From Bolinopsis microptera (taxonomy: Eukaryota; Ctenophora; Tentaculata; Lobata; Bolinopsidae): a stretch of 64,000 nt of DNA. The notes beneath the pieces are model-generated. The model was given only the letters and a program-made list of their open reading frames with translations, had not been told where the DNA came from and did not search any database. Positions within the stretch are counted from its first letter, which is position 1. The number at the start of each line of letters is the position of its first letter. Positions 2,291 to 57,476 of this stretch are shown piece by piece. The DNA is taken from positions 6,469,001 through 6,533,000 of the forward strand of contig NC_087073.1 in assembly GCF_026151205.1 (NCBI RefSeq), written 5' to 3'. A program made the position numbers and the translations under genes.

Positions 2291-3130
2291 GATGAATCCA
2301 GATTTTTGGAACATTTTTGGAACATTTTTGGAACATGTCCCAAAATTGTCCCAAAAGTGTCCCATGCATTTATTTGCCCTAATAAGCTCTAAATAGTGCC
2401 AAAAATAATTGTAAATGATGGATATAGTTGCAAGCTAGGTCTAGGGGCCATCGAAAGTAGCATAAAATTACCCAGGTTCATGGAATGAACGAAAATGAAC
2501 AAAAATGAATATTGTCCTAAAAATGCTCAGAACGGTTTAAAATTGGTCGGAAAGTGTTTATATTAGTCCTAGGACCACTCAAACCAAGTTTGGGAATCAC
2601 TGCATGTCTAGAACCGATGTTACCAATGTTCCAAAATGTTCCAATTTTGGGACAATAATCCTCCTGAGAATCCAGATTTTTGGAACATGGGCACATCGAA
2701 GTATTGGCTGTATTTAAGTGCTGGGAAGCCTCAATTCGGTTTTCTAAGATGGATATAGGTAAAAACTAGGCCTAAGAGCCATCAAAACTCAAATAACATC
2801 ACCCAGGTTCATGGAATGAACGAAAATGAACAAAAATGAATATTGTCCTAAAAATGCTCAGAACGGTTTAAAATTGGTCGGAAAGTGTTTATATTGGTCC
2901 TAGGACCACTCAAACCAAGTTTGAGAATCACTGCATGTCTAGAACCGATGTTACCAATGTTCCAAAATGTTCCAATTTTGGGACAATAATCCTCCTGAAA
3001 ATCCAGATTTTTGGAACATGGGCACATCGAAGTATTGGCTGTATTTAAGTGCTGGGAAGCCTCAATTCGGTTTTCTAAGATGGATATAGGAAAAAACTAG
3101 GCCTAGAGGAGCCATCAAAATTCAAAGAAT
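2291..3130 (+). repeat. Left arm: ~331-bp tandem repeat units
   Basis: Two full units and a partial one. Landmarks such as GGAACATGGGCACATCGAAG and AACCAAGTTTG recur about 330 bp apart. The first part (2300-2370) is a degenerate, shortened unit with extra copies of TTTTTGGAACA. Confidence 0.85.
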
Positions 3131-3589
3131 ATTACCCAAGTTTATAGAACATTAAAATTTTCCTCAAAGCGCTCAGAATGATTAAAAAATGGTGGCAAAG
3201 AGTCAATATTTTCATCCAACAGGGTCTTAAAGTTGCAATCAGAATTATGTACAATTAGACAGAAATTATTTTATTGGGCAAATATTTTGGTTTTAATAAT
3301 CCTCCAATATTTTGATATAAATTTTTGACATCACTAGCTGTATTTGAGTGTGCTTTGTATTTTGAAAACAAAGATAACAGTCATTTAGTAAACAGCAAAT
3401 TAAATTCTACGTTTATTATCTAGTAAAAATACTGTATGTTATAAAATACTGTATATTATAAAATCTGTATATAAAAATAAACTACTCAATTACTCTACAG
3501 TAGGACTTCTTTACTCAGACCGTTTTAACGGACCAGGTGGAGATGAAAATGGATTTTGTCGTTGTGTCGGGGTTCAGTCTTCGTCTTTT

Positions 3590-5120
3590 TGTCAATTTTA
3601 AACCGTTCTGAGCATTTTTAGGACAATATTCATTTTTGTTCATTTTCGTTCATTCCATGAACCTGGGTAATGTTATTTGAGTTTTGATGGCTCTTAGGCC
3701 TAGTTTTTACCTATATCCATCTTAAAAAACCGAATTGAGGCTTCCCAGCACTTAAATACAGCCAATACTTCGATGTGCCCATGTTCCAAAGATCTGGATT
3801 CTCAGAAGGATTATTGTCCCAAAATTGGAACATTTTGGAACATTGGTAACATCGGTTCTAGACATGCAGTGATTCCCAAACTTGGTTTGAGTGGTCCTAG
3901 GACTAATATAAACACTTTCCGACCAATTTTAAACCGTTCTGAGCATTTTTAGGACAATATTCATTTTTGTTCATTTTCGTTCATTCCATGAACCTGGGTA
4001 ATGTTATTTGAGTTTTGATGGCTCTTAGGCCTAGTTTTTACCTATATCCATCTTAGAAAACCGAATTGAGGCTTCCCAGCACTTAAATACAGCCAATACT
4101 TCGATGTGCCCATGTTCCAAAAATCTGGATTCTCAGGAGGATTATTGTCCCAAAATTGGAACATTTTGGAACATATGTAACATCGGTTCTAGACATGCAG
4201 TGATTCCCAAACTTGGTTTGGGTGGTCCTAGAACCAATATAAACACTTTCCGACCAATTTTAAACCGTTCTGAGCATTTTTAGGACAATATTCATTTTTG
4301 TTCATTTTCGTTCATTCCATGAACCTGGGTAATGTTATTTGAGTTTTGATGGCTCTTAGGCCTAGTTTTTACCTATATCCATCTTAGAAAACCGAATTGA
4401 GGCTTCCCAGCACTTAAATACAGCCAATACTTCGATGTGCCCATGTTCCAAAAATCTGGATTCTCAGGAGGATTATTGTCCCAAAATTGGAACATTTTGG
4501 AACATATGTAACATCGGTTCTAGACATGCAGTGATTCCCAAACTTGGTTTGGGTGGTCCTAGAACCAATATAAACACTTTCCGACCAATTTTAAACCGTT
4601 CTGAGCATTTTTAGGACAATATTCATTTTTGTTCATTTTCGTTCATTCCATGAACATGGGTAATGTTATTTGAGTTTTGATGGCTCTTAGGCCGACTTTT
4701 TACATATATCCATCTTAGAAAACCGAATTGAGGCTTCCCAGCACTTAAATACAGCCAATACTTCGATGTGCCCATGTTCCAAAAATCTGGATTCTCAGGA
4801 GGATTATTGTCCCAAAATTGGAACATTTTGGAACATTGGTAACATCGGTTCTAGACATGCAGTGATTCCCAAACTTGGTTTGAGTGGTCCTAGGACCAAT
4901 GTGAACACTTTCCGACCCATTTTAAACCATTCGGAGCACTTTGAGAAGAATGTTCATTTTCGTTCATTTCTGGTCATTCCATGGGTAATTTTATACGACT
5001 TTTGATGGCTCCTAGGCCTAGCTTACGGCTATATCCATCTTGGAAAACCGAACTGAGCCTTCCCAGCACTCAAATACGGCCAATACTGTGATGTGCCCAT
5101 GTTCCAAATTTATGGATTCA
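3590..5120 (-). repeat. Right arm: inverted ~331-bp tandem repeat units
   Basis: The same unit as the left arm in reverse orientation, in four or more copies. The landmark GACCAATTTTAAACCGTTC falls at about 3921, 4252 and 4583, giving a period of about 331. Neighbouring copies are nearly identical, whereas the outermost unit (4890-5120) is clearly diverged, a gradient expected if the inner units were amplified more recently. Confidence 0.85.
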
Positions 5121-11250: not shown

Positions 11251-20051
<8,801 letters not shown>

Positions 20052-46359: not shown

Positions 46360-49300
46360 GGATCTTCTCCAGAGCAGAGGTAGAGTTGAGAAGGCAGTAC
46401 TAGAATTTGACGGCTTAAAAGCCAGTGGACCTGACGGTCTGCGCCCTATAATGCTACAGAAGGGACTACCACTCATAGGCGATGTCTTCACAAAACTAAC
46501 AAAGGCAAGTTTCCAAAGTGGATATGTTCCTGATAGCTGGCACAACTCGACAGGCATTTTCCTACCAAAACCAGGGAAAACTGACTAATATAACCCTAAA
46601 TCCTACTGAACCATCACTCTGGCTCCAATACCACTCAAGTGGATGGAACGAATAGTGTTATCAGTTATGGCATATGGAGGAAGACCTTAAGATATACTCT
46701 AAGCTTTAAAAAAACAATACGGTTTTGTAAAAGGTGCCTCAACTGAGACAGCTTTACACAAAATAGTACACAAAATAGAATGGACAATCATAAGCTCCGG
46801 TATGGCTCTAGGAACTTTCTTATATGTCGAAGGGGCCTTTGACAATGTAGCTTTCAAGTCTATAGAGAAGGCCCTGAACCGGAAATGTGAGTTGTCCTCA
46901 TTCAACAAATGGATTATGTTTCTACTCTGCAATAGAACCAAAAACGTGGAACTAAACGGATGCAAGGTGGGATCCTGTCTCCATTCTTATGGAACCTGGT
47001 AGTTGACAGTCTCATGTCGTACACCAGAGAATAGAGATATGATCTCATGTGACCTCAAGGGTTTGCGGACGATATTGCATTATAAGCTACGTTGGAGGGA
47101 CCTGCAACATGTGGCAACCAAGGCTTTGATGCTGATCATCTCAGAGAGATGACACAGCAAAGTCTTGAAGCCATCATGAACTGGTGCACTGATAACGTGC
47201 TGAAACTAAGTACACTAAAAACACATACTGTAATGTTCACTTGGACGAGGAAATGGGTATTCTTAGAACCTCTAACAATGAACGGAACTGAAATAAGTAT
47301 GCGAAATTCCACTAAGTTTCTAGGAGTAACACTCGATAGCAAACACACGTGGAATGACCACATCAAAAACCAGTGTAAAAAAGCCAAAGGCATACTCATG
47401 GATTGCAGGAGAGCCATTGGACCAACATGGGGGTTCACCCCCAAGACCATGAAATGGATATATATCAGACCTTCCTTGACATCACTGCAACAATCTGGCT
47501 CACTGATGTGTCCAAAAAACATAACTTAACAATCCTAAGCTGCGTACAGCAGCTAGGGAATATTCTCATAACAGGAGGGTTACCATCAACTCATGGAGCA
47601 GCTCTAGACATCATCACCGGAATTATCCCCATTGACCTGGTGATAGAAGAGGAAGCAGCAAAAGGAGCTCTTAGACTCAAATCCAACAACCACTGGATAC
47701 ATAAGCCAATGGTTTTAACAAGAAGGGCAACCTAACCATGCCACCCACACAAAACTAAACGAACAATTACTAAAGGCTATCAATCTCAATTGTGAAGGGC
47801 AAGATCAACAGACAAGATCAACAGGAACTTTCTTATATGTCGAAGGGGCCTTTGACAATGTAGCTTTCAAGTCTATAGAGAAGGCCCTGAACCGGAAATG
47901 TGAGTTGTCCTCATTCAACAAATGGATTATGTTTCTACTCTGCAATAGAACTAAAAACGTGGAATTAAACGGATGCAAGGTGGGATCCTGTCTCCATTCT
48001 TATGGAACCTGGTAGTTGACAGTCTCATGTCGTACACCAGAGAATAGAGATATGATCTCATGTGACCTCAAGGGTTTGCGGACGATATTGCATTATAAGC
48101 TACGTTGGAGGGACCTGCAACATGTGGCAACCAAGGCTTTGATGCTGATCATCTCAGAGAGATGACACAGCAAAGTCTTGAAGCCATCATGAACTGGTGC
48201 ACTGATAACGTGCTGAAACTAAGTACACTAAAAACACATACTGTAATGTTCACTTGGACGAGGAAATGGGTATTCTTAGAACCTCTAACAATGAACGGAA
48301 CTGAAATAAGTATGCGAAATTCCACTAAGTTTCTAGGAGTAACACTCGATAGCAAACACACGTGGAATGACCACATCAAAAACCAGTGTAAAAAAGCCAA
48401 AGGCATACTCATGGATTGCAGGAGAGCCATTGGACCAACATGGGGGTTCACCCCCAAGACCATGAAATGGATATATATCAGACCTTCCTTGACATCACTG
48501 CAACAATCTGGCTCACTGATGTGTCCAAAAAACATAACTTAACAATCCTAAGCTGCGTACAGCAGCTAGGGAATATTCTCATAACAGGAGGGTTACCATC
48601 AACTCATGGAGCAGCTCTAGACATCATCACCGGAATTATCCCCATTGACCTGGTGATAGAAGAGGAAGCAGCAAAAGGAGCTCTTAGACTCAAATCCAAC
48701 AACCACTGGATACATAAGCCAATGGTTTTAACAAGAAGGGCAACCTAACCATGCCACCCACACAAAACTAAACGAACAATTACTAAAGGCTATCAATCTC
48801 AATTGTGAAGGGCAAGATCAACAGACAAGATCAACAGGAACTTTCTTATATGTCGAAGGGGCCTTTGACAATGTAGCTTTCAAGTCTATAGAGAAGGCCC
48901 TGAACCGGAAATGTGAGTTGTCCTCATTCAACAAATGGATTATGTTTCTACTCTGCAATAGAACTAAAAACGTGGAATTAAACGGATGCAAGGTGGGATC
49001 CTGTCTCCATTCTTATGGAACCTGGTAGTTGACAGTCTCATGTCGTACACCAGAGAATAGAGATATGATCTCATGTGACCTCAAGGGTTTGCGGACGAAA
49101 TTGCATTATAAGCTACGTTGGAGGGACCTGCAACATGTGGCAACCAAGGCTTTGATGCTGATCATCTCAGAGAGATGACACAGCAAAGTCTTGAAGCCAT
49201 CATGAACTGGTGCACTGATAACGTGCTGAAACTAAGTACACTAAAAACACATACTGTAATGTTCACTTGGACGAGGAAATGGGTATTCTTAGAACCTCTA

Positions 49301-50170
49301 ACAATGAACGGAACTGAAATAAGTATGCGAAATTCCACTAAGTTTCTAGGAGTAACACTCGATAGCAAACACACGTGGAATGACCACATCAAAAACCAGT
49401 GTAAAAAAGCCAAAGGCATACTCATGGATTGCAGGAGAGCCATTGGACCAACATGGGGGTTCACCCCCAAGACCATGAAATGGATATATATCAGACCTTC
49501 CTTGACATCACTGCAACAATCTAGTCTGGCTCACTGATGTGTCCAAAAAACATAACTTAACAATCCTAAGCTGCGTACAGCAGCTAGGGAATATTCTCAT
49601 AACAGGAGGGTTACCATCAACTCATGGAGCAGCTCTAGACATCATCACCGGAATTATCCCCATTGACCTGGTGATAGAAGAGGAAGCAGCAAAAGGAGCT
49701 CTTAGACTCAAATCCAACAACCACTGGATACATAAGCCAATGGTTTTAACAAGAAGGGCAACCTAACCATGCCACCCACACAAAACTAAACGAACAATTA
49801 CTAAAGGCTATCAATCTCAATTGTGAAGGGCAAGATCAACAGACTACATCACTGAATGCTGACATTTGTTTTACTACAGAAATTCCTCGACTCTCAGAGT
49901 ATGAGGAAATTGAGAACGATACCAACACCATACAATGCTACACAGACGGCTCCAAAATTAATGAACAAGTTGGAGCAGCAGTGTACATTGTGGATAACGA
50001 CACCCCTCCACATGAGGAGTCCTACCACCTAGGAACCAACTCAACCGTCTTCCAGGCCTAGACCTTTGCCGTAGGTACAGCGGCAAAAATATTACAGGAA
50101 TCTGGAACTAAAACTAGAAAAATCATCATAAACTGTGATATCCAGGCGACAATAATGTCAAGGATACAAG
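46360..50170 (+). pseudogene. Dead LINE: reverse transcriptase and RNase H (I/R1-like)
   Basis: The plus strand reads as a decayed LINE polyprotein: RT entry (ASGPDGLRPIMLQKG, SGYVPDSWHNSTGIFLPKPG), RT core (FLYVEGAFDNVAFKSIEKAL, then GFADDIAL), thumb (NSTKFLGVTLDSKHTWNDHI) and a downstream RNase H (CYTDGSKINEQVGAAVYIV, IIINCDIQA). RNase H after the RT is typical of the I/R1/LOA side of the LINE tree. It is dead: stops interrupt every part, the first catalytic RT Asp position reads Y (FLYVEGAFD), and the position expected to be the RNase H Glu after VFQA is a TAG. The RT core is present three times in tandem (see repeat). No APE endonuclease or 5' end remains. Confidence 0.85.
46810..49848 (+). 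repeat. 1013-bp tandem triplication within the dead LINE
   Basis: Three almost identical units start at 46810, 47823 and 48836. All share the same stops, so the amplification came after the LINE died. Copies 2 and 3 share changes absent from copy 1, and copy 3 alone has ADE for ADD and a 4-bp insertion near 49522, which argues for stepwise duplication. The junctions contain a short repeated phrase, AAGATCAACAG. Confidence 0.95.

Positions 50171-51226: not shown

Positions 51227-51259
<33 letters not shown>
51227..51259. repeat. (G)33 homopolymer
   Basis: An uninterrupted run of about 33 G inside the left subterminal region of the TIR-bounded insertion. The true length may differ because such runs are hard to sequence. 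Confidence 0.9.
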
Positions 51260-52228
51260 CGTGTTAGGGGGGGTGCCAAATCGTTGTTTGAATGTGGGAC
51301 AATTTCGAAAACTTAACTTAAGTTTTGATTGAAATAAATTTTCGTGCACATACAGAATGAATGGTTAATAATTTAATATATATGTAGACCAAGGTCTGTG
51401 CACGGGATGCTTCCTGGAAGAATCCAGTTCTTTTAGCGGGGCACCCTACCTAAAGCCAAATTGAGATATAATAATCATATTCCTAGAGAAATAATCAGAA
51501 ATCGAATACCAATCAAATAATATGATATATAGGAGTAGTAACCATATTTACTATGCAAAATGCCCCAACCACATAGTGTAAATTTATATAGAATTCAAAT
51601 TCCATATCATCATTAAACCTCAATAGTCAATATAATAGCCCAAGCAAAATTAAGTAACTTCTTATATACCTTACTGTCATACTACTAATTAATTAAACAT
51701 TTGAAATCTGTTAACCAGAGAAAAAATTTCTAAACCTAATGCAAGTGAAATAATTTAGATGCAATAATGAATGCCTAATGTGAGTATCATCTGTCAATGT
51801 CCTTGTAAAAAAGTCTGTAAAAGAGATATGAGTAACTAATATAGAAGAAAAAACAGGAAGTTGTCGTCTGTTGAAAAATAAATAAAATATCTAGAATATA
51901 AATTAGAATATAAAATAACATTCAGTCAGTGTGTCGTCAATAAACTGTACAATTAACAAATGTTGAAACTGGTTGATACAGTCACCAAAAATAAAATACT
52001 AAGTATAATAAGTAAATAAATTAAATGTGGTCTATAAAACTACCACTAGGTATAATAGGTCAATAAATTAAAAGTGGTTTATAAAACTACCACTGTGCGA
52101 ACCCTTTCTCCAGTTAAAACATGTCAGTCATGTGCAGAATCAATCAAAATGGTAAGGTGGTAAAAAAGGGAAAATCCTTTCGATACATAAATTATATATG
52201 CCTCAGATTTAAAAGAATTAGAAGATAC

Positions 52229-55204
52229 TTAGTTATCGTCGACTATGATTGCAGTGTAAAATTTGTCATATGAATTGTCGACGGTATAATTAGGGTCTGT
52301 TGTTATAGATGAGAGTAGCTGTTTCTTATACGAATCACTAAGGCTTTTAACATCGGGCAGATTTCGTAGATCTGTTGGAACATTATTCCAACATTTTGCC
52401 CCCAAGTATTGAAAGTTTTTATGTGATGTTGATCTATTAACATATAGGTTGCAGCTTTCGCCGCTCCTACTACCTCCTGATATGTAACTAAATTTGTTCA
52501 TAAAGTTTGTAGGACAATTGTCATGGATGATTCTAAACATATAATTTGACAGATGGAGTTGTCGTCTAAGATGGAGTGGTAACCATTTCATGTCTCTATA
52601 AACATTAAGGCTGCTCTCTGTTTGTGGAACGTTGAGAGCTATTTTGGCTACCTTTTTGTACAGAGTGTCAAGTTCAGCAAGTTTTGTCTTGCCAGCTCTA
52701 CAATAGATCGTGTCTAAATAATCGAATTGTGGCAACATGAGTGCATTGGCAAACATTTTCCTATATTTAATGGGTAGCAGTGCTTTACTTCTATACATGG
52801 CACCAATTCTCTTCATGACCTTCTTAATAATATAATCTACATGGCTTTTGAAGTTTAATTTACTATCTAGAATGAGGCCAAGATATTTTGTCTCTTTGCA
52901 CTCCTTGATTGTGAAAGTTACCTCATTACATTCAATGGTTAATTCATCATGTTGATCAACAGAATCAAACAATAGGAATTCAGTCTTCTTTTCATTGAGT
53001 GATAATTTATTTACACTGAGCCATTTAAAGATTGTCATAAGTTCTATTTTCATGTTTATAAATGTGCTTCTGCAGGTTTGATCAAAGAATAGTGCACCAT
53101 CATCTGCAAATAGAAAGGGCTTAGATAGGTTACAGGCATAAATGATGTCATTTATGAAGATACTAAATAATATAGGCCCAATGATGCTTCCTTGTGGTAC
53201 ACCACTCAGAACTTCTAAAAATGAACTTATTTTGCCATTGATCCTAGTGCATTGATATCTACAAGATAAGAAGTTCTTAAACCAGGTTAAAGCAATGCCA
53301 CCAATTCCATAATATGCCAATTTTTGAAGCAATATTTCATGATTCACTGTGTCAAAGGCCTTCTTAAGATCAAGAAAGATAATTCCTGGTTTATAAGACT
53401 TAGATTTACTCATATATATTTCGTCCATCAGATCGTACATCAAATAAGTTGTGGAGTGATTTTTCCGAAAGCCATATTGATGCCGGATGAAAAGTTTGTT
53501 CTCTTCCATGTAATCAGTGAGTTGCTTGCCGACAAAGTATTCTATAAGTTTTCCTACAAGTGGAAGGATGGATATTGGCCTGTAATTATTAGGATCATCT
53601 TTCATTCCTGCCTTATGGATGGGAGTTACTCTAGCTTTTTTACAAAGGGTTGGTACAACACCTGTATTAAGGCTCAAATTGACAATATGGGTCAGTGGCT
53701 CAACTATGTGTGGTACAGCTTGCTTAAGTAAAAATAGAGGCACATCGTCATATGAGGCCTTGTCATTCTTGAGCGTTTCGACATACATTAGGATATCAGT
53801 TTCATTTATTTCTTGGAATCTATCAAATGAGATGTTAGAAGTTCTAGGAGGTAAAAAATCAGTAAAACTAACTCTTTCAATATTGGGGGCCTGATTTTGT
53901 AATCTTGATCCAACATTTGCAAAATGAAAGTTAAATAGCTCAGGATCATTCTCATTGATAGTTTGACAATTAGTTGTACCAGGGGTCATATTTGATGCCA
54001 GTTTGATAGTTTTCCATACCCCTTTAAGATCATTCTTGGCACTTTTAACTTGTAGATCATCGATTACATTAGCCTTTTTGCAGGTTTTAGCTAATTTATT
54101 TCTAATATTTCTCTGAATCTTGTAGCAATCCCAAGCCTCATTACACTTTATACATTTGCTACATATACCACATTTATTGCAATTTCCATTGTCTCTCTTA
54201 TCCTTCTTTTTACGGAATTTCTTTAGAAGAAAATGTGTATGATTAATGGCATTTAAAAGTTCAGCAGAAGGTTTATGTATGAACTTTTCATGCCTTTCTA
54301 TGGTCTTGCAAGGGAAGAAGGTTGCATATGCCTGTTCAATATGATGACAAAGGCCAGCAGTGATAGCTTCAACATCTGTACTTTCCAATAGTGGACTGTA
54401 ATCAGAACAGGTATCTAGATAGTCTAAGAATTGTTTAACATTACGTTTACAATGATTTCTAATTTCAACCTTTTCAAATTTAGGAGCTATAGGTACTTTA
54501 CAATCTATCTCACACATAATAGCTTGATGATCCCCAATACGTTCATCAAGAACAGAAGATTGAACAAAATCTGCATAACAGTTAGTGAATATTACATCAA
54601 TAGTAGTCTGGGTAAAATTGTCTCCACGTTTAGCAACTCTAGTTATCCCTTGAATGGTTTGAACTAGATTGTAACATCTCAAGGTCATATCTAATTTTTT
54701 GTACTGGGTGGATGAGATATTATTCTGGTCAATGTTTATATCCCCAATCCAGATAACCTTTTTCCCGTTCAATTTTTTCATGCAAAAATGAATGTACTCA
54801 ATAAAGTTATCAACACTGCAATAATTTCCAGAGCGATAGAAGCAGCAAACATTGATCTTGCTATTCTTAAGCTTCACCCATAATGCTTCAATGTTATCAA
54901 GCTTACTATCCATAACTAATTCTGTGTAAGCTAGTTTTTTGTTTATCATTAAGCCACAACCACCCCTAGAACTGTTTGGCCTGTCGCATCGCATAATGTT
55001 GAAGGAGGAAGGAATATTTATGGTGTCTGTGTCAATAGTATCATTAAGATTCATCTCATTTAGGGAAAGTATGTCTAGCTTATGATCTCGAATGAGTTGA
55101 GTAAGTTCATTACTTTTAGCTAAATTTAGGAGACCACCTTGAATGTTACAGTGACCAATACAAAGGTTATGAAATTTGTCAGCTGAGTTGTGAATATTTG
55201 TCAT
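52229..55204 (-). CDS. LINE ORF2: APE endonuclease and reverse transcriptase (CR1/jockey group)
   Basis: 991 residues with no interruption. Residues ~12-235 form the APE-type endonuclease: GHCNIQG, E50 in LNEMNL, GDINID (D155, N157), TTIDVIFTN and GDHQAI (D225, H226). Residues ~520-760 form the RT: PIHKAG, NYRPISILP, QYGFRKNHST, FLDLKKAFDTVNHEILLQKL (first catalytic Asp D612), SGVPQGSIIGPILF and FADDGALF (D701, D702), then LSLNEKKTEFLLF and a thumb/C-terminal region ending near SYDKFYTAIIVDDN. Between the two enzymes is a Cys-rich cluster (C342, C345, C348, C351, C354, C360). Together these nick target DNA and copy the element RNA there. All catalytic residues are present. ORF1 lies 135 bp upstream on the same strand. 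There is no RNase H and no LTR. Confidence 0.96.
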   Translation of the reverse strand: MTNIHNSADKFHNLCIGHCNIQGGLLNLAKSNELTQLIRDHKLDILSLNEMNLNDTIDTDTINIPSSFNIMRCDRPNSSRGGCGLMINKKLAYTELVMDSKLDNIEALWVKLKNSKINVCCFYRSGNYCSVDNFIEYIHFCMKKLNGKKVIWIGDINIDQNNISSTQYKKLDMTLRCYNLVQTIQGITRVAKRGDNFTQTTIDVIFTNCYADFVQSSVLDERIGDHQAIMCEIDCKVPIAPKFEKVEIRNHCKRNVKQFLDYLDTCSDYSPLLESTDVEAITAGLCHHIEQAYATFFPCKTIERHEKFIHKPSAELLNAINHTHFLLKKFRKKKDKRDNGNCNKCGICSKCIKCNEAWDCYKIQRNIRNKLAKTCKKANVIDDLQVKSAKNDLKGVWKTIKLASNMTPGTTNCQTINENDPELFNFHFANVGSRLQNQAPNIERVSFTDFLPPRTSNISFDRFQEINETDILMYVETLKNDKASYDDVPLFLLKQAVPHIVEPLTHIVNLSLNTGVVPTLCKKARVTPIHKAGMKDDPNNYRPISILPLVGKLIEYFVGKQLTDYMEENKLFIRHQYGFRKNHSTTYLMYDLMDEIYMSKSKSYKPGIIFLDLKKAFDTVNHEILLQKLAYYGIGGIALTWFKNFLSCRYQCTRINGKISSFLEVLSGVPQGSIIGPILFSIFINDIIYACNLSKPFLFADDGALFFDQTCRSTFINMKIELMTIFKWLSVNKLSLNEKKTEFLLFDSVDQHDELTIECNEVTFTIKECKETKYLGLILDSKLNFKSHVDYIIKKVMKRIGAMYRSKALLPIKYRKMFANALMLPQFDYLDTIYCRAGKTKLAELDTLYKKVAKIALNVPQTESSLNVYRDMKWLPLHLRRQLHLSNYMFRIIHDNCPTNFMNKFSYISGGSRSGESCNLYVNRSTSHKNFQYLGAKCWNNVPTDLRNLPDVKSLSDSYKKQLLSSITTDPNYTVDNSYDKFYTAIIVDDN

Positions 55205-55339
55205 TTTACAAAACGTGTTAGTCGTTGTGTCTGATTAAACTAAAATCAGGTGAAAATTATCCGCCTGTAAATATTTTCAATAGAAAAGTTTTAAACTTGA
55301 AATCAAAATAAATATTCAGGTGGAAATGTCATGTCGATT

Positions 55340-56950
55340 TCAATGGTGAGCATGGTACTTGATGTGCTTTGCTAGTTTAAAGATACCATCGCTGTTTAGA
55401 TGCACATTGTCTTCCCCAAATCTACTAAAACAAGATGATTTCCTAAATCCAGATCTATCACTAAACAAAAATCGATTCATCTCTGTGGGTATAAAGCTAA
55501 CAAACGAGTATTTGGAAGGAATCTTAGATAAAAAGATATTGATGTCATTTATCACTTTATTTCTAGCAAAACTTTCTCTTGGTAAAATGTTTATGATCTT
55601 AATTTTTGCAGCTGGAGCCCACGAGTGAAGTGACTGGATCAGATTATCAATAGAGCGATTGGTGTTATCAAGGGCCTTTGCTTTTCCTGTGAACTCATCG
55701 GGTGACAATAATCTATTCCTCATGTGTCGAGGACTCTCTAGGATTAAGTCCACATCATTAGTTCCACACATGAGTACGATGGTCTTCACATTATTTGCAT
55801 CAATTGACCTCTTTCTTTCATCTGAGTGGAAGCGTTCATTGATACCGTTTGCAATGCCACCAGGATAGTGAAATACATGTGCTTCTTGATGAGCAGAGGA
55901 TAGTTTTGTAGCATCTAACTTGGAGAACATGCTTGAGCTAACATACACAGCAAGGGATTTGCTTTTGACTGAAGCAGGGGGTACGGTGCTCTTATGAGTG
56001 ATTTTGTTGGGTGATGATTTCCCTTTGATTGAGGGTTCAGTTTCTCTTACAGTAACGAAAGGCTTACTTGAGGTATCGGGTGGAGCAGACAAGGTTGCAC
56101 TGCCATCAATCTGGCGCAGAGTAATGCTAATTCTCATGTCATCAGTATGGTCCTGAATAAGGCTGTGTTCAAAGCTGTCCTGAGATTTTCTGGTCATAAT
56201 CATTATGTCGCCATGGGAGAGAGTAAGATTGGCAACGTGGACTTTGCTTTTAGACCTAAAACTGAGGACTCTTGTTGCTCCTAACGATATGGTGGAAATC
56301 ATGGAGCCTGGTGATATGGACCTCTCATCATCTGAATGGAATGGTATTCCTTGCTTGCCATTTTCATACTTAGTGATCATGGCGCTGTTAAATATCAGAC
56401 TTGGGAACTGTGAGCGTAAACGTTCTAAAATAGACTTTAATAAGGGATTGTCATTTAACGGCCTTGTGTTATGGAAGCCTCCATTGTAGGCATATGGGAA
56501 ATCCCCATAGTATGCTACAGCCCTATTGTTAAACGTTTGTGTGTATTGTGTTTCCATATCCAACTTGAGAGTGTCAACAAACCTGAATACACCTCGACTC
56601 AAATCATGATATGGATTGATGGACTTACCCACAACGTTAACACTGGTTGAAGATTGTTTGTTAACATCAGAAGAGTTCACAAGAGATGGGTTGCTATTAA
56701 GTTCAGTCACACTGCTAACTTCACAGTTTTGAGTTTCTGATTCATGTTCAGAGATAAGAACATTGTCCCCGCAAGAGAATGGAACCGCAATTTTGTCATG
56801 GCCTGAGCCTTGGGTAAGTTTGGTTAGACGAGCAATTTGTCTCCTCAAATTGTCGTTTTCAAGACTTAGTGATACACAGGTAGAACATTTTGCTTTTGCA
56901 CTGTTAGGTCTGTCACGAAGGCTGTAATTTCTGATTGGGATACCGGACAT
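55340..56950 (-). CDS. LINE ORF1: AlkB-like dioxygenase fused to SGNH hydrolase
   Basis: 536 residues, uninterrupted. Residues 22-50: a C-x2-C pair and a short coiled coil. Residues ~113-282: an AlkB-family 2-oxoglutarate/Fe(II) dioxygenase with iron ligands H205, D207 (FHSDDERSISPGS) and H262 (FEHSL), and the R273/R279 pair (DMRISITLR) for 2-oxoglutarate; the strands FNSAMITKYENG and LTLSHGDIMIM fit ALKBH2-like enzymes. Residues ~332-535: an SGNH/GDSL-type hydrolase with the block I serine in VYVSSSM (about 338-340), G364, N398 in CGTNDV, and D514/H517 in DNVHL. SGNH (esterase) domains are known in ORF1 of CR1-group LINEs; I do not recall the AlkB fusion as a described feature. Both active sites look complete. 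A role in repairing or demethylating the element's RNA, or in RNP handling, is inference. Confidence 0.92.
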   Translation of the reverse strand: MSGIPIRNYSLRDRPNSAKAKCSTCVSLSLENDNLRRQIARLTKLTQGSGHDKIAVPFSCGDNVLISEHESETQNCEVSSVTELNSNPSLVNSSDVNKQSSTSVNVVGKSINPYHDLSRGVFRFVDTLKLDMETQYTQTFNNRAVAYYGDFPYAYNGGFHNTRPLNDNPLLKSILERLRSQFPSLIFNSAMITKYENGKQGIPFHSDDERSISPGSMISTISLGATRVLSFRSKSKVHVANLTLSHGDIMIMTRKSQDSFEHSLIQDHTDDMRISITLRQIDGSATLSAPPDTSSKPFVTVRETEPSIKGKSSPNKITHKSTVPPASVKSKSLAVYVSSSMFSKLDATKLSSAHQEAHVFHYPGGIANGINERFHSDERKRSIDANNVKTIVLMCGTNDVDLILESPRHMRNRLLSPDEFTGKAKALDNTNRSIDNLIQSLHSWAPAAKIKIINILPRESFARNKVINDINIFLSKIPSKYSFVSFIPTEMNRFLFSDRSGFRKSSCFSRFGEDNVHLNSDGIFKLAKHIKYHAHH

Positions 56951-57476
56951 AGTTCAAATAAACACAATAATGCAAAGAATTCAGGATAGAGTCTAAAACC
57001 GATGCTACTGTTTAGTTATTTAGTTGTTGATTACAGTACCTTTGCAGCAATTCAGAAGATGGGAATGAGTGGTGTCTGATATTCTTTAGGTGATAGATGG
57101 GTGATAGGTGATAGATGGGAGTTAACAGCTCTTAAAAACGATGTCTGATAGTCTTTAGGATGTCTTTAAATAAACTATCGTGCAACAATCATTTAAATCG
57201 ACATACAACCTGTAATGGTTGCTACATTTGATTGAGGTGTTAATTCCCACTAGGGGTCCTCAATAAATGTAATAGATTTGTAGTGTTGTAATTAGTTTAA
57301 AACTAGCAAAACTGCGCGTTTTGCTATAGATACACACTTTTTTAGAGATTTTACCGGCGTATTCTCTAAAATCACCTAATTTGTTCAATTTTAGGGAGGG
57401 GCACCAAAAGGGGAGGGGGCGCCAACAGGGGGGCGCTTTTTCGGCGGGGGGGCCAACAGGCAACGTTACGCCACTG

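Follow-up and report, generated by a model that had tools for sequence, protein, structure and literature searches.

An AlkB-type domain precedes an SGNH hydrolase-like domain in ORF1 of a LINE from the ctenophore Bolinopsis microptera

Structure of the element

The stretch of DNA analysed, here called the window, comprises 64,000 nucleotides of the Bolinopsis microptera genome (contig NC_087073.1, positions 6,469,001 to 6,533,000) and carries on its minus strand a copy of a long interspersed nuclear element (LINE). An earlier note, made from the sequence alone, had placed the first open reading frame (ORF1) of this element at 55340..56950; these coordinates proved exact, the frame running from ATG to stop over 536 amino acids. 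ORF1 lies upstream of ORF2, separated from it by a 135-bp spacer. The features of the copy, whose family is designated A in this study, are as follows.

51325..57304, minus strand: whole LINE copy, 5,980 bp, with ends inferred from where the flanks of six aligned family-A copies diverge
56951..57304, minus strand: 5' untranslated leader
55340..56950, minus strand: ORF1 (N-terminal region, AlkB, linker, SGNH), ATG to stop, 536 amino acids
56618..56950, minus strand: rapidly evolving N-terminal region of ORF1 (residues 1-111), CxxC at 22-25
56102..56617, minus strand: AlkB domain, ORF1 residues 112-283, with putative metal ligands H205, D207 and H262 and putative 2-oxoglutarate (2OG) site R273 and R279
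55961..56101, minus strand: variable linker, ORF1 residues 284-330
55343..55960, minus strand: SGNH hydrolase-like domain, ORF1 residues 331-536, with GTND at 396-399, D514, H517, and SSS at 338-340 as nucleophile block
52229..55204, minus strand: ORF2, endonuclease and reverse transcriptase, 991 amino acids (Exo_endo_phos 2.1e-7, RVT_1 1.9e-35)
54584..55150, minus strand: endonuclease domain, ORF2 residues 19-207
52871..53614, minus strand: reverse transcriptase domain, ORF2 residues 531-778
51325..52228, minus strand: 3' untranslated region that includes a 47-bp repeat (51998-52094) and terminates in TTTCAATCAA, lacking poly(A)

Inspection of this copy by eye revealed no clear target-site duplication. 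Judging by the architecture, namely an esterase ORF1 and no poly(A), our guess is that the element belongs to the CR1/L2 group (Jockey superfamily).

The AlkB domain

The Pfam profile PF13532 matched ORF1 with an E-value of 3.3e-17 and a score of 63.8 bits, the curated cut-off being 31.2, and the nearest solved structures in a search of the Protein Data Bank (PDB) were ALKBH3 (1.2e-13) and ALKBH2 (1.5e-12). The HxD...H triad and the R-x5-R site are both complete (H205, D207, H262, R273 and R279), the first three residues being presumably metal ligands and the two arginines, we assume, the 2OG site, as in AlkB. A full AlkB domain with exactly these residues had been proposed from the letters alone, and both the profile match and the residue numbering bear that out. 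None of the five varies among the 13 intact family-A ORF1s that have the same length. The metal- and 2OG-site residues are likewise invariant in 15 of 15 AlkB domains of transposable elements (TEs), a set made up of one copy each of family A and its sister family B and 13 others, with L050, L052 and L054 excluded as duplicates or near-duplicates; these domains were cut around HxD up to the R-R motif, so the motifs were partly selected for, and none of the input loci failed to yield them. The AlkB fold of ORF1 is inferred from sequence, and the domain very likely functions as a 2OG/Fe(II) dioxygenase of the AlkB type.

The SGNH domain

The C-terminal domain was also recognized, at first weakly. 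Lipase_GDSL_2 matched the whole ORF1 with an E-value of 0.017 and all four members of a small A/B alignment, the best at 4.4e-5 and the window sequence at 0.0025, and the window score lies below the gathering score of 32.9. A search of the PDB with the SGNH profile retrieved no protein of that type. Profiles built from the SGNH parts of eight relatives retrieved the left-out ninth in nine cases of nine (E of 3.4e-12 or less, Z set to 1000), which supports a C-terminal SGNH domain even though the window protein falls below the Pfam cut-off. Because A and B are close sisters, the weight of this test is carried by L055 (2.7e-12), L057 (1.7e-16) and L058 (3.4e-12), the last of which has no Pfam GDSL match and yet is found by the profile of its relatives.

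The earlier note had credited this domain with a complete catalytic set of its own, a claim that is only partly confirmed for this family, in which GTND (396-399), D514 and H517 are present. SSS (338-340) occupies the place where GDS is expected and, in the automatic alignment, is not aligned with the GDS, SDS or HDS of the relatives; the canonical GDS is present in L057 and L058. G364 is replaced by serine in one of the 13 family-A copies.

An SGNH domain in ORF1 upstream of an endonuclease and reverse transcriptase ORF2 recalls the type IV (esterase) ORF1 of CR1/L2-group LINEs, in which, according to the available text of two reports, SGNH follows a coiled coil and a linker (PMC3905857; PMC4120745). 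The window ORF1 differs in having AlkB between its N-terminus and SGNH. A short helix appears at ORF1 residues 33-44 in a low-confidence AlphaFold model.

Copies in the genome

The search for ORF1 in the genome (265 Mb in 232 contigs; 81 of 851 candidates scored) gave at least 85 matches. At least 16 of these, forming family A, cover residues 1-536 at 98-100% identity, and at least 22, forming the sister family B, run from residue 1 or 5 to 536 at 65-67% identity, one of them with an internal stop. The remaining matches are partial, one being decayed (58% identity, ten stops). Nine family-A ORF1s differ pairwise by only 0.06-1.1%, which indicates that the element moved recently. ORF2 was found in at least 46 places (46 of 6537 candidates scored) and remains open in many family-A and family-B copies, while the flanks differ around all six aligned family-A copies, showing them to be dispersed.

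The AlkB domain is more widespread still. The PF13532 family search gave at least 151 matches (150 of 587 candidates scored), and the 150 listed were all above the cut-off; the AlkB domain as query gave at least 150 (150 scored of 778 candidates). Merging both searches, with places less than 1 kb apart joined, yielded at least 251 AlkB places (104 from PF13532 only, 101 from the query only, 46 common), a figure that takes in three host genes (L045, L046, L047), unclassified frames and fragments. Open frames among the listed places comprise 153 of 500-699 amino acids, 22 of 700-899 and 6 above 2,000. These counts and the ORF1 copies led to rejection of a chance ORF or a single odd copy as an explanation. 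The fusion is thus not confined to this copy and evolving neutrally, the outcome that had been named in advance as fatal: further copies, other LINE families and low ratios of non-synonymous to synonymous divergence (dN/dS) were all found.

Outside this genome, viral contigs scanned with ORF1, and again with the aligned AlkB domains of four relatives, gave pattern matches and no relative, as did a collection of genome contigs scanned with the A/B AlkB. A phage search returned eight records of distant AlkBs, all below 60% identity.

Selection on ORF1

Comparison of families A and B gave 82% amino acid identity in AlkB (dN 0.12, dS 0.99, dN/dS 0.12), 67% in SGNH (dN 0.23, dS saturated) and 43% in the N-terminus, so that within ORF1 conservation is highest in AlkB. 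Between L053 and L059, which represent another AlkB lineage, dN/dS is as low as 0.05 (dN 0.054, dS 1.08). Variation within family A was surveyed in the 13 intact ORF1s of equal length, L011, L015 and L016 being excluded for other lengths. In AlkB the ratio of replacement to silent polymorphism (pN/pS) is 0.18 for shared and 0.21 for single variants, on small counts (2 shared and 7 single replacement, 3 shared and 9 single silent; 9 and 12 in total). The rest of ORF1 has 4 shared and 21 single replacement variants and 1 shared and 7 single silent ones, with single-variant pN/pS, again on small counts, of 0.73 in SGNH, 0.88 in the N-terminus and 1.3 in the linker. These ratios point in the same direction as the A/B comparison; the shared SGNH value of 0.27 comes from one replacement and one silent variant and carries little information.

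The suggestion that AlkB is kept by selection is therefore upheld by the two dN/dS values (0.12 and 0.05) and the catalytic residues conserved in 15 of 15 domains, and a neutral passenger was rejected on the low dN/dS and the family-A variant pattern. Another possibility is that the fold is retained as a structural, nucleic-acid-binding substitute for the RNA-binding domain missing from esterase-type ORF1s, catalysis being irrelevant. This is improbable, as HxD, H, R and R would be needless for binding alone and yet are invariant in all 15 domains, and dN/dS is low while the N-terminus is scrambled.

Other AlkB-SGNH frames

AlkB and SGNH occur together in all 11 frames that were read to the neighbours of AlkB, comprising nine LINE-type ORF1s, one frame whose AlkB is different and one giant Helitron frame. 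AlkB precedes SGNH in families A and B and in L041, L042, L043, L055, L056, L057 and L058. The different AlkB is that of L059, where a long linker separates it from SGNH (E 1.4e-4, compared with 0.38 for the best of 1,000 shuffles); L048-L054 were read as AlkB alone, L052 being the same place as L059. In L063, downstream of L059, text resembling endonuclease and reverse transcriptase was seen by eye only, and L053 and L059 represent a second AlkB lineage with long frames.

The endonuclease that Pfam recognizes downstream passes the cut-off in A, L043, L056 and L058 and misses it in L057; endonuclease text in L041 and L055 and reverse transcriptase text in L042 were recognized by eye only. AlkB-SGNH ORF1s with endonuclease or reverse transcriptase behind them are thus present in several LINE lineages of the same genome. 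At least two kinds of ORF2 are involved, one without a finger (A, B, L043, L056) and one with a leading C1/PHD-like finger (above the cut-off in L041, below it in L055 and L058), and endonuclease identity between the two kinds is 20-26% or not detected.

The Helitron frame (contig C10; 3,388 amino acids) encodes AlkB (L044), then DUF6570 (5.1e-6, L060) and then Helitron_like_N (L062; the Rep profile PF14214, 2.1e-23), and is free of stops from L060 into L062. L044 alone gave no SGNH profile match; when the adjoining L061 was read along, an SGNH with a canonical GDS emerged ahead of AlkB (E 1.7e-4; best of 500 shuffles 3.2). This frame also contains long Pro/Ala-rich repeats, and upstream, in L061, there is a DVETNPGP motif which we take to be 2A-like. 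Five further AlkB frames exceed 2,000 amino acids among the matches listed.

Exchange of ORF1 modules

The ORF2s of families A and B are 98% identical, with dS of 0-0.04 from codon 81 and 0.46 in codons 1-80, whereas dS between their ORF1s is near 1 or saturated. Measured in 30-codon steps, ORF2 identity starts at 0.81 and has reached 0.99 at codon 61. L043 and L056 likewise share 97.5% identity in the endonuclease part (dS 0.05) and 66% in AlkB (dS 1.8). With divergence of ORF1 and ORF2 clashing in two family pairs, ORF1 modules seem to have been exchanged between elements, in agreement with the reticulate ORF1 evolution described, in the available text, for the Jockey superfamily (PMC4120745).

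When the window ORFs are set against L022, the switch in A/B divergence falls in approximately the first 60 codons of ORF2.

Origin of the TE AlkB domains

The host possesses separate ALKBH2-like (L045, 1.7e-59 to ALKBH2 in the PDB) and ALKBH3-like genes (L046, 2.3e-40, and L047, 8.4e-28, both with ALKBH3 as best solved relative). A tree of 22 domains was built from 15 TE, 3 host, 3 phage and 1 plasmid sequences, the phage and plasmid domains serving as outgroups. A branch with 98/97 support separates thirteen LINE and Helitron AlkBs from those of the host, bacteria and phages, although branching among them is partly weak, that of the Helitron above all. L053 and L059 fall on the other side of the split, beside a Caulobacter phage AlkB (87/91). 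Forcing all 15 TE AlkBs together was not rejected (approximately unbiased test, p 0.112), and the two-group tree is as good as the best.

The earlier note had seen a strong resemblance to ALKBH2 around HSDDER. The AlkB of the window element is not especially close to ALKBH2, since in this tree it falls outside the cluster that ALKBH2 and ALKBH3 form with the AlkBs of bacteria and phages. No grouping of TE AlkBs with host ALKBH2 or ALKBH3 as orthologues was found among the 22 domains, 13 of the TE domains lying outside. The TE domains do share superfamily and catalytic residues with the host proteins, which differ in being encoded by separate genes (L045, L046) on another branch. The similarity to ALKBH2/3 might be taken to mean that a host ALKBH2/3 transcript was captured recently and hitch-hikes without function in one LINE family. 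This is very improbable and was rejected, given the separate host genes and the 98/97 split of 13 TE AlkBs; the other AlkB families of the genome are moreover only 38-52% identical to the window AlkB (among the best 150 of 778 candidates), so that the spread looks old.

Possible function

Selection has preserved the catalytic residues in related LINEs and in a Helitron, an unrelated kind of DNA transposon, which suggests that nucleic acids are freed of chemical marks or damage by these elements. The bases m1A and m3C block reverse transcription and are repaired by ALKBH2/3. The window element is a recently active LINE with a multi-domain ORF1 protein, and we lean towards a reading in which the AlkB-type dioxygenase before its SGNH esterase-like domain would repair template or cDNA in cis. 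The ORF1 protein would be bound to the element's own single-stranded nucleic acid, where AlkB would remove methyl groups from bases; an enzyme acting in this manner would be expected to benefit retrotransposition. The first target would be template RNA carrying m1A, m3C and similar marks, with single-stranded cDNA or nicked target DNA as possible further targets, and the Helitron case would extend the substrate to single-stranded DNA or host marks.

Several points weigh against this reading. Position 275 is serine in 15 of 15 TE domains, as it is in the Caulobacter phage AlkB, and asparagine in the three ALKBH2/3-like proteins of the host, so the cofactor site may differ. Single-sequence AlphaFold models reached a mean pLDDT (predicted local distance difference test) of only 38 for ORF1 and 32 for its AlkB part. 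As the AlkB and SGNH pair is also carried by a Helitron, which moves as DNA, repair of a reverse transcription template is unlikely to be its only use. Furthermore, the m6A eraser ALKBH5 is stated, in the available text of one study, to suppress human L1 retrotransposition (PMC7873242), so a LINE does not in every case profit when marks are removed.

The principal rival, which we regard as unlikely, is that AlkB removes or changes a methyl mark of the host (m6A or m1A in RNA, 6mA or 5mC in DNA) that singles out element transcripts or copies for repression, to the profit of LINEs and Helitrons alike. The pair common to LINEs and a Helitron of one genome and the at least 251 AlkB places would accord with this, as would the AlkB of orchid Ty3/Gypsy elements, a demethylase in vitro for which, in the text available, epitranscriptomic control against TEs was proposed (PMC9289625); the nearest solved relatives of the window domain, however, are the lesion-repair enzymes ALKBH2/3, not shown to be m6A erasers. 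Repair of template or cDNA in cis is still preferred here. A broader proposal is more tentative: AlkB and SGNH may form a two-enzyme module common to unrelated mobile-element classes of this genome (Helitrons and several LINE lineages). Such a module would have been gained or reshuffled repeatedly and would serve to undo methylation or lesions in the nucleic acid of the elements, as a TE-encoded epitranscriptome or repair function.

Comparison with known systems

The orchid Ty3/Gypsy (Ogre/Tat) elements offer a retroelement-borne AlkB-type 2OG-dependent dioxygenase with proposed action on RNA marks; they differ in being plant elements with long terminal repeats that carry the enzyme at the end of a separate ORF2, and the available text mentions no SGNH (PMC9289625). 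The AlkB domains encoded by Flexiviridae and by other RNA viruses of plants similarly retain HxD...H...R...R within an RNA genome and, as far as the available text goes, are viewed as acting in RNA repair and judged functional repair domains (PMC544882), although they belong to a viral polyprotein of plants and not to a LINE. The LINE AlkB would be a counterpart of both.

The ORF1 protein is less well understood than the rest of a LINE, and the types described have RNA-binding, PHD or esterase domains. A survey of 448 elements recorded RRM, CCHC, PHD, esterase and coiled-coil domains in ORF1, according to its available text (PMC4120745). A word search found no occurrence of 'alkb' in the available text of PMC3905857 and PMC4120745 and none of 'oxygenase' in that of the latter. 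No description of AlkB in LINE ORF1 or in Helitrons was found in the open-licence literature, Repbase, Repbase Reports and subscription journals being outside the search; within that scope, no prior publication contradicts the novelty claimed for the fusion in the earlier note. AlkB-SGNH is possibly a new ORF1 type, and possibly a module common to Helitrons, with a prior Repbase entry also possible. A conserved demethylase in ORF1 would provide a concrete, testable link of base methylation or alkylation damage with retrotransposition, and the repeated pairing of AlkB with SGNH, in LINEs as well as in a Helitron, points to a problem common to mobile elements.

Other observations in the window

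Two alternative heads of the 5' leader, AGTTTTAAACTAATTAC... and TTTTAATACTTTCAACAC..., are each present in both families A and B, with L033, L034, L040, L027, L030 and L031 on one side of the split and the remaining copies on the other, as if the leaders had been swapped as modules. A run of 33 G lies at 51227-51259, about 65 bp past the 3' end of the LINE copy. At 47086-49534 there are three copies of an open frame of 141-147 amino acids, spaced 1,013 bp, which by eye only resemble a portion of a reverse transcriptase. Satellite-like arrays occupy 2417-5119, 14418-14861 and 16949-18185, their units measuring 331 bp (two arrays), 33 bp (13 copies) and 31 bp (40 copies).
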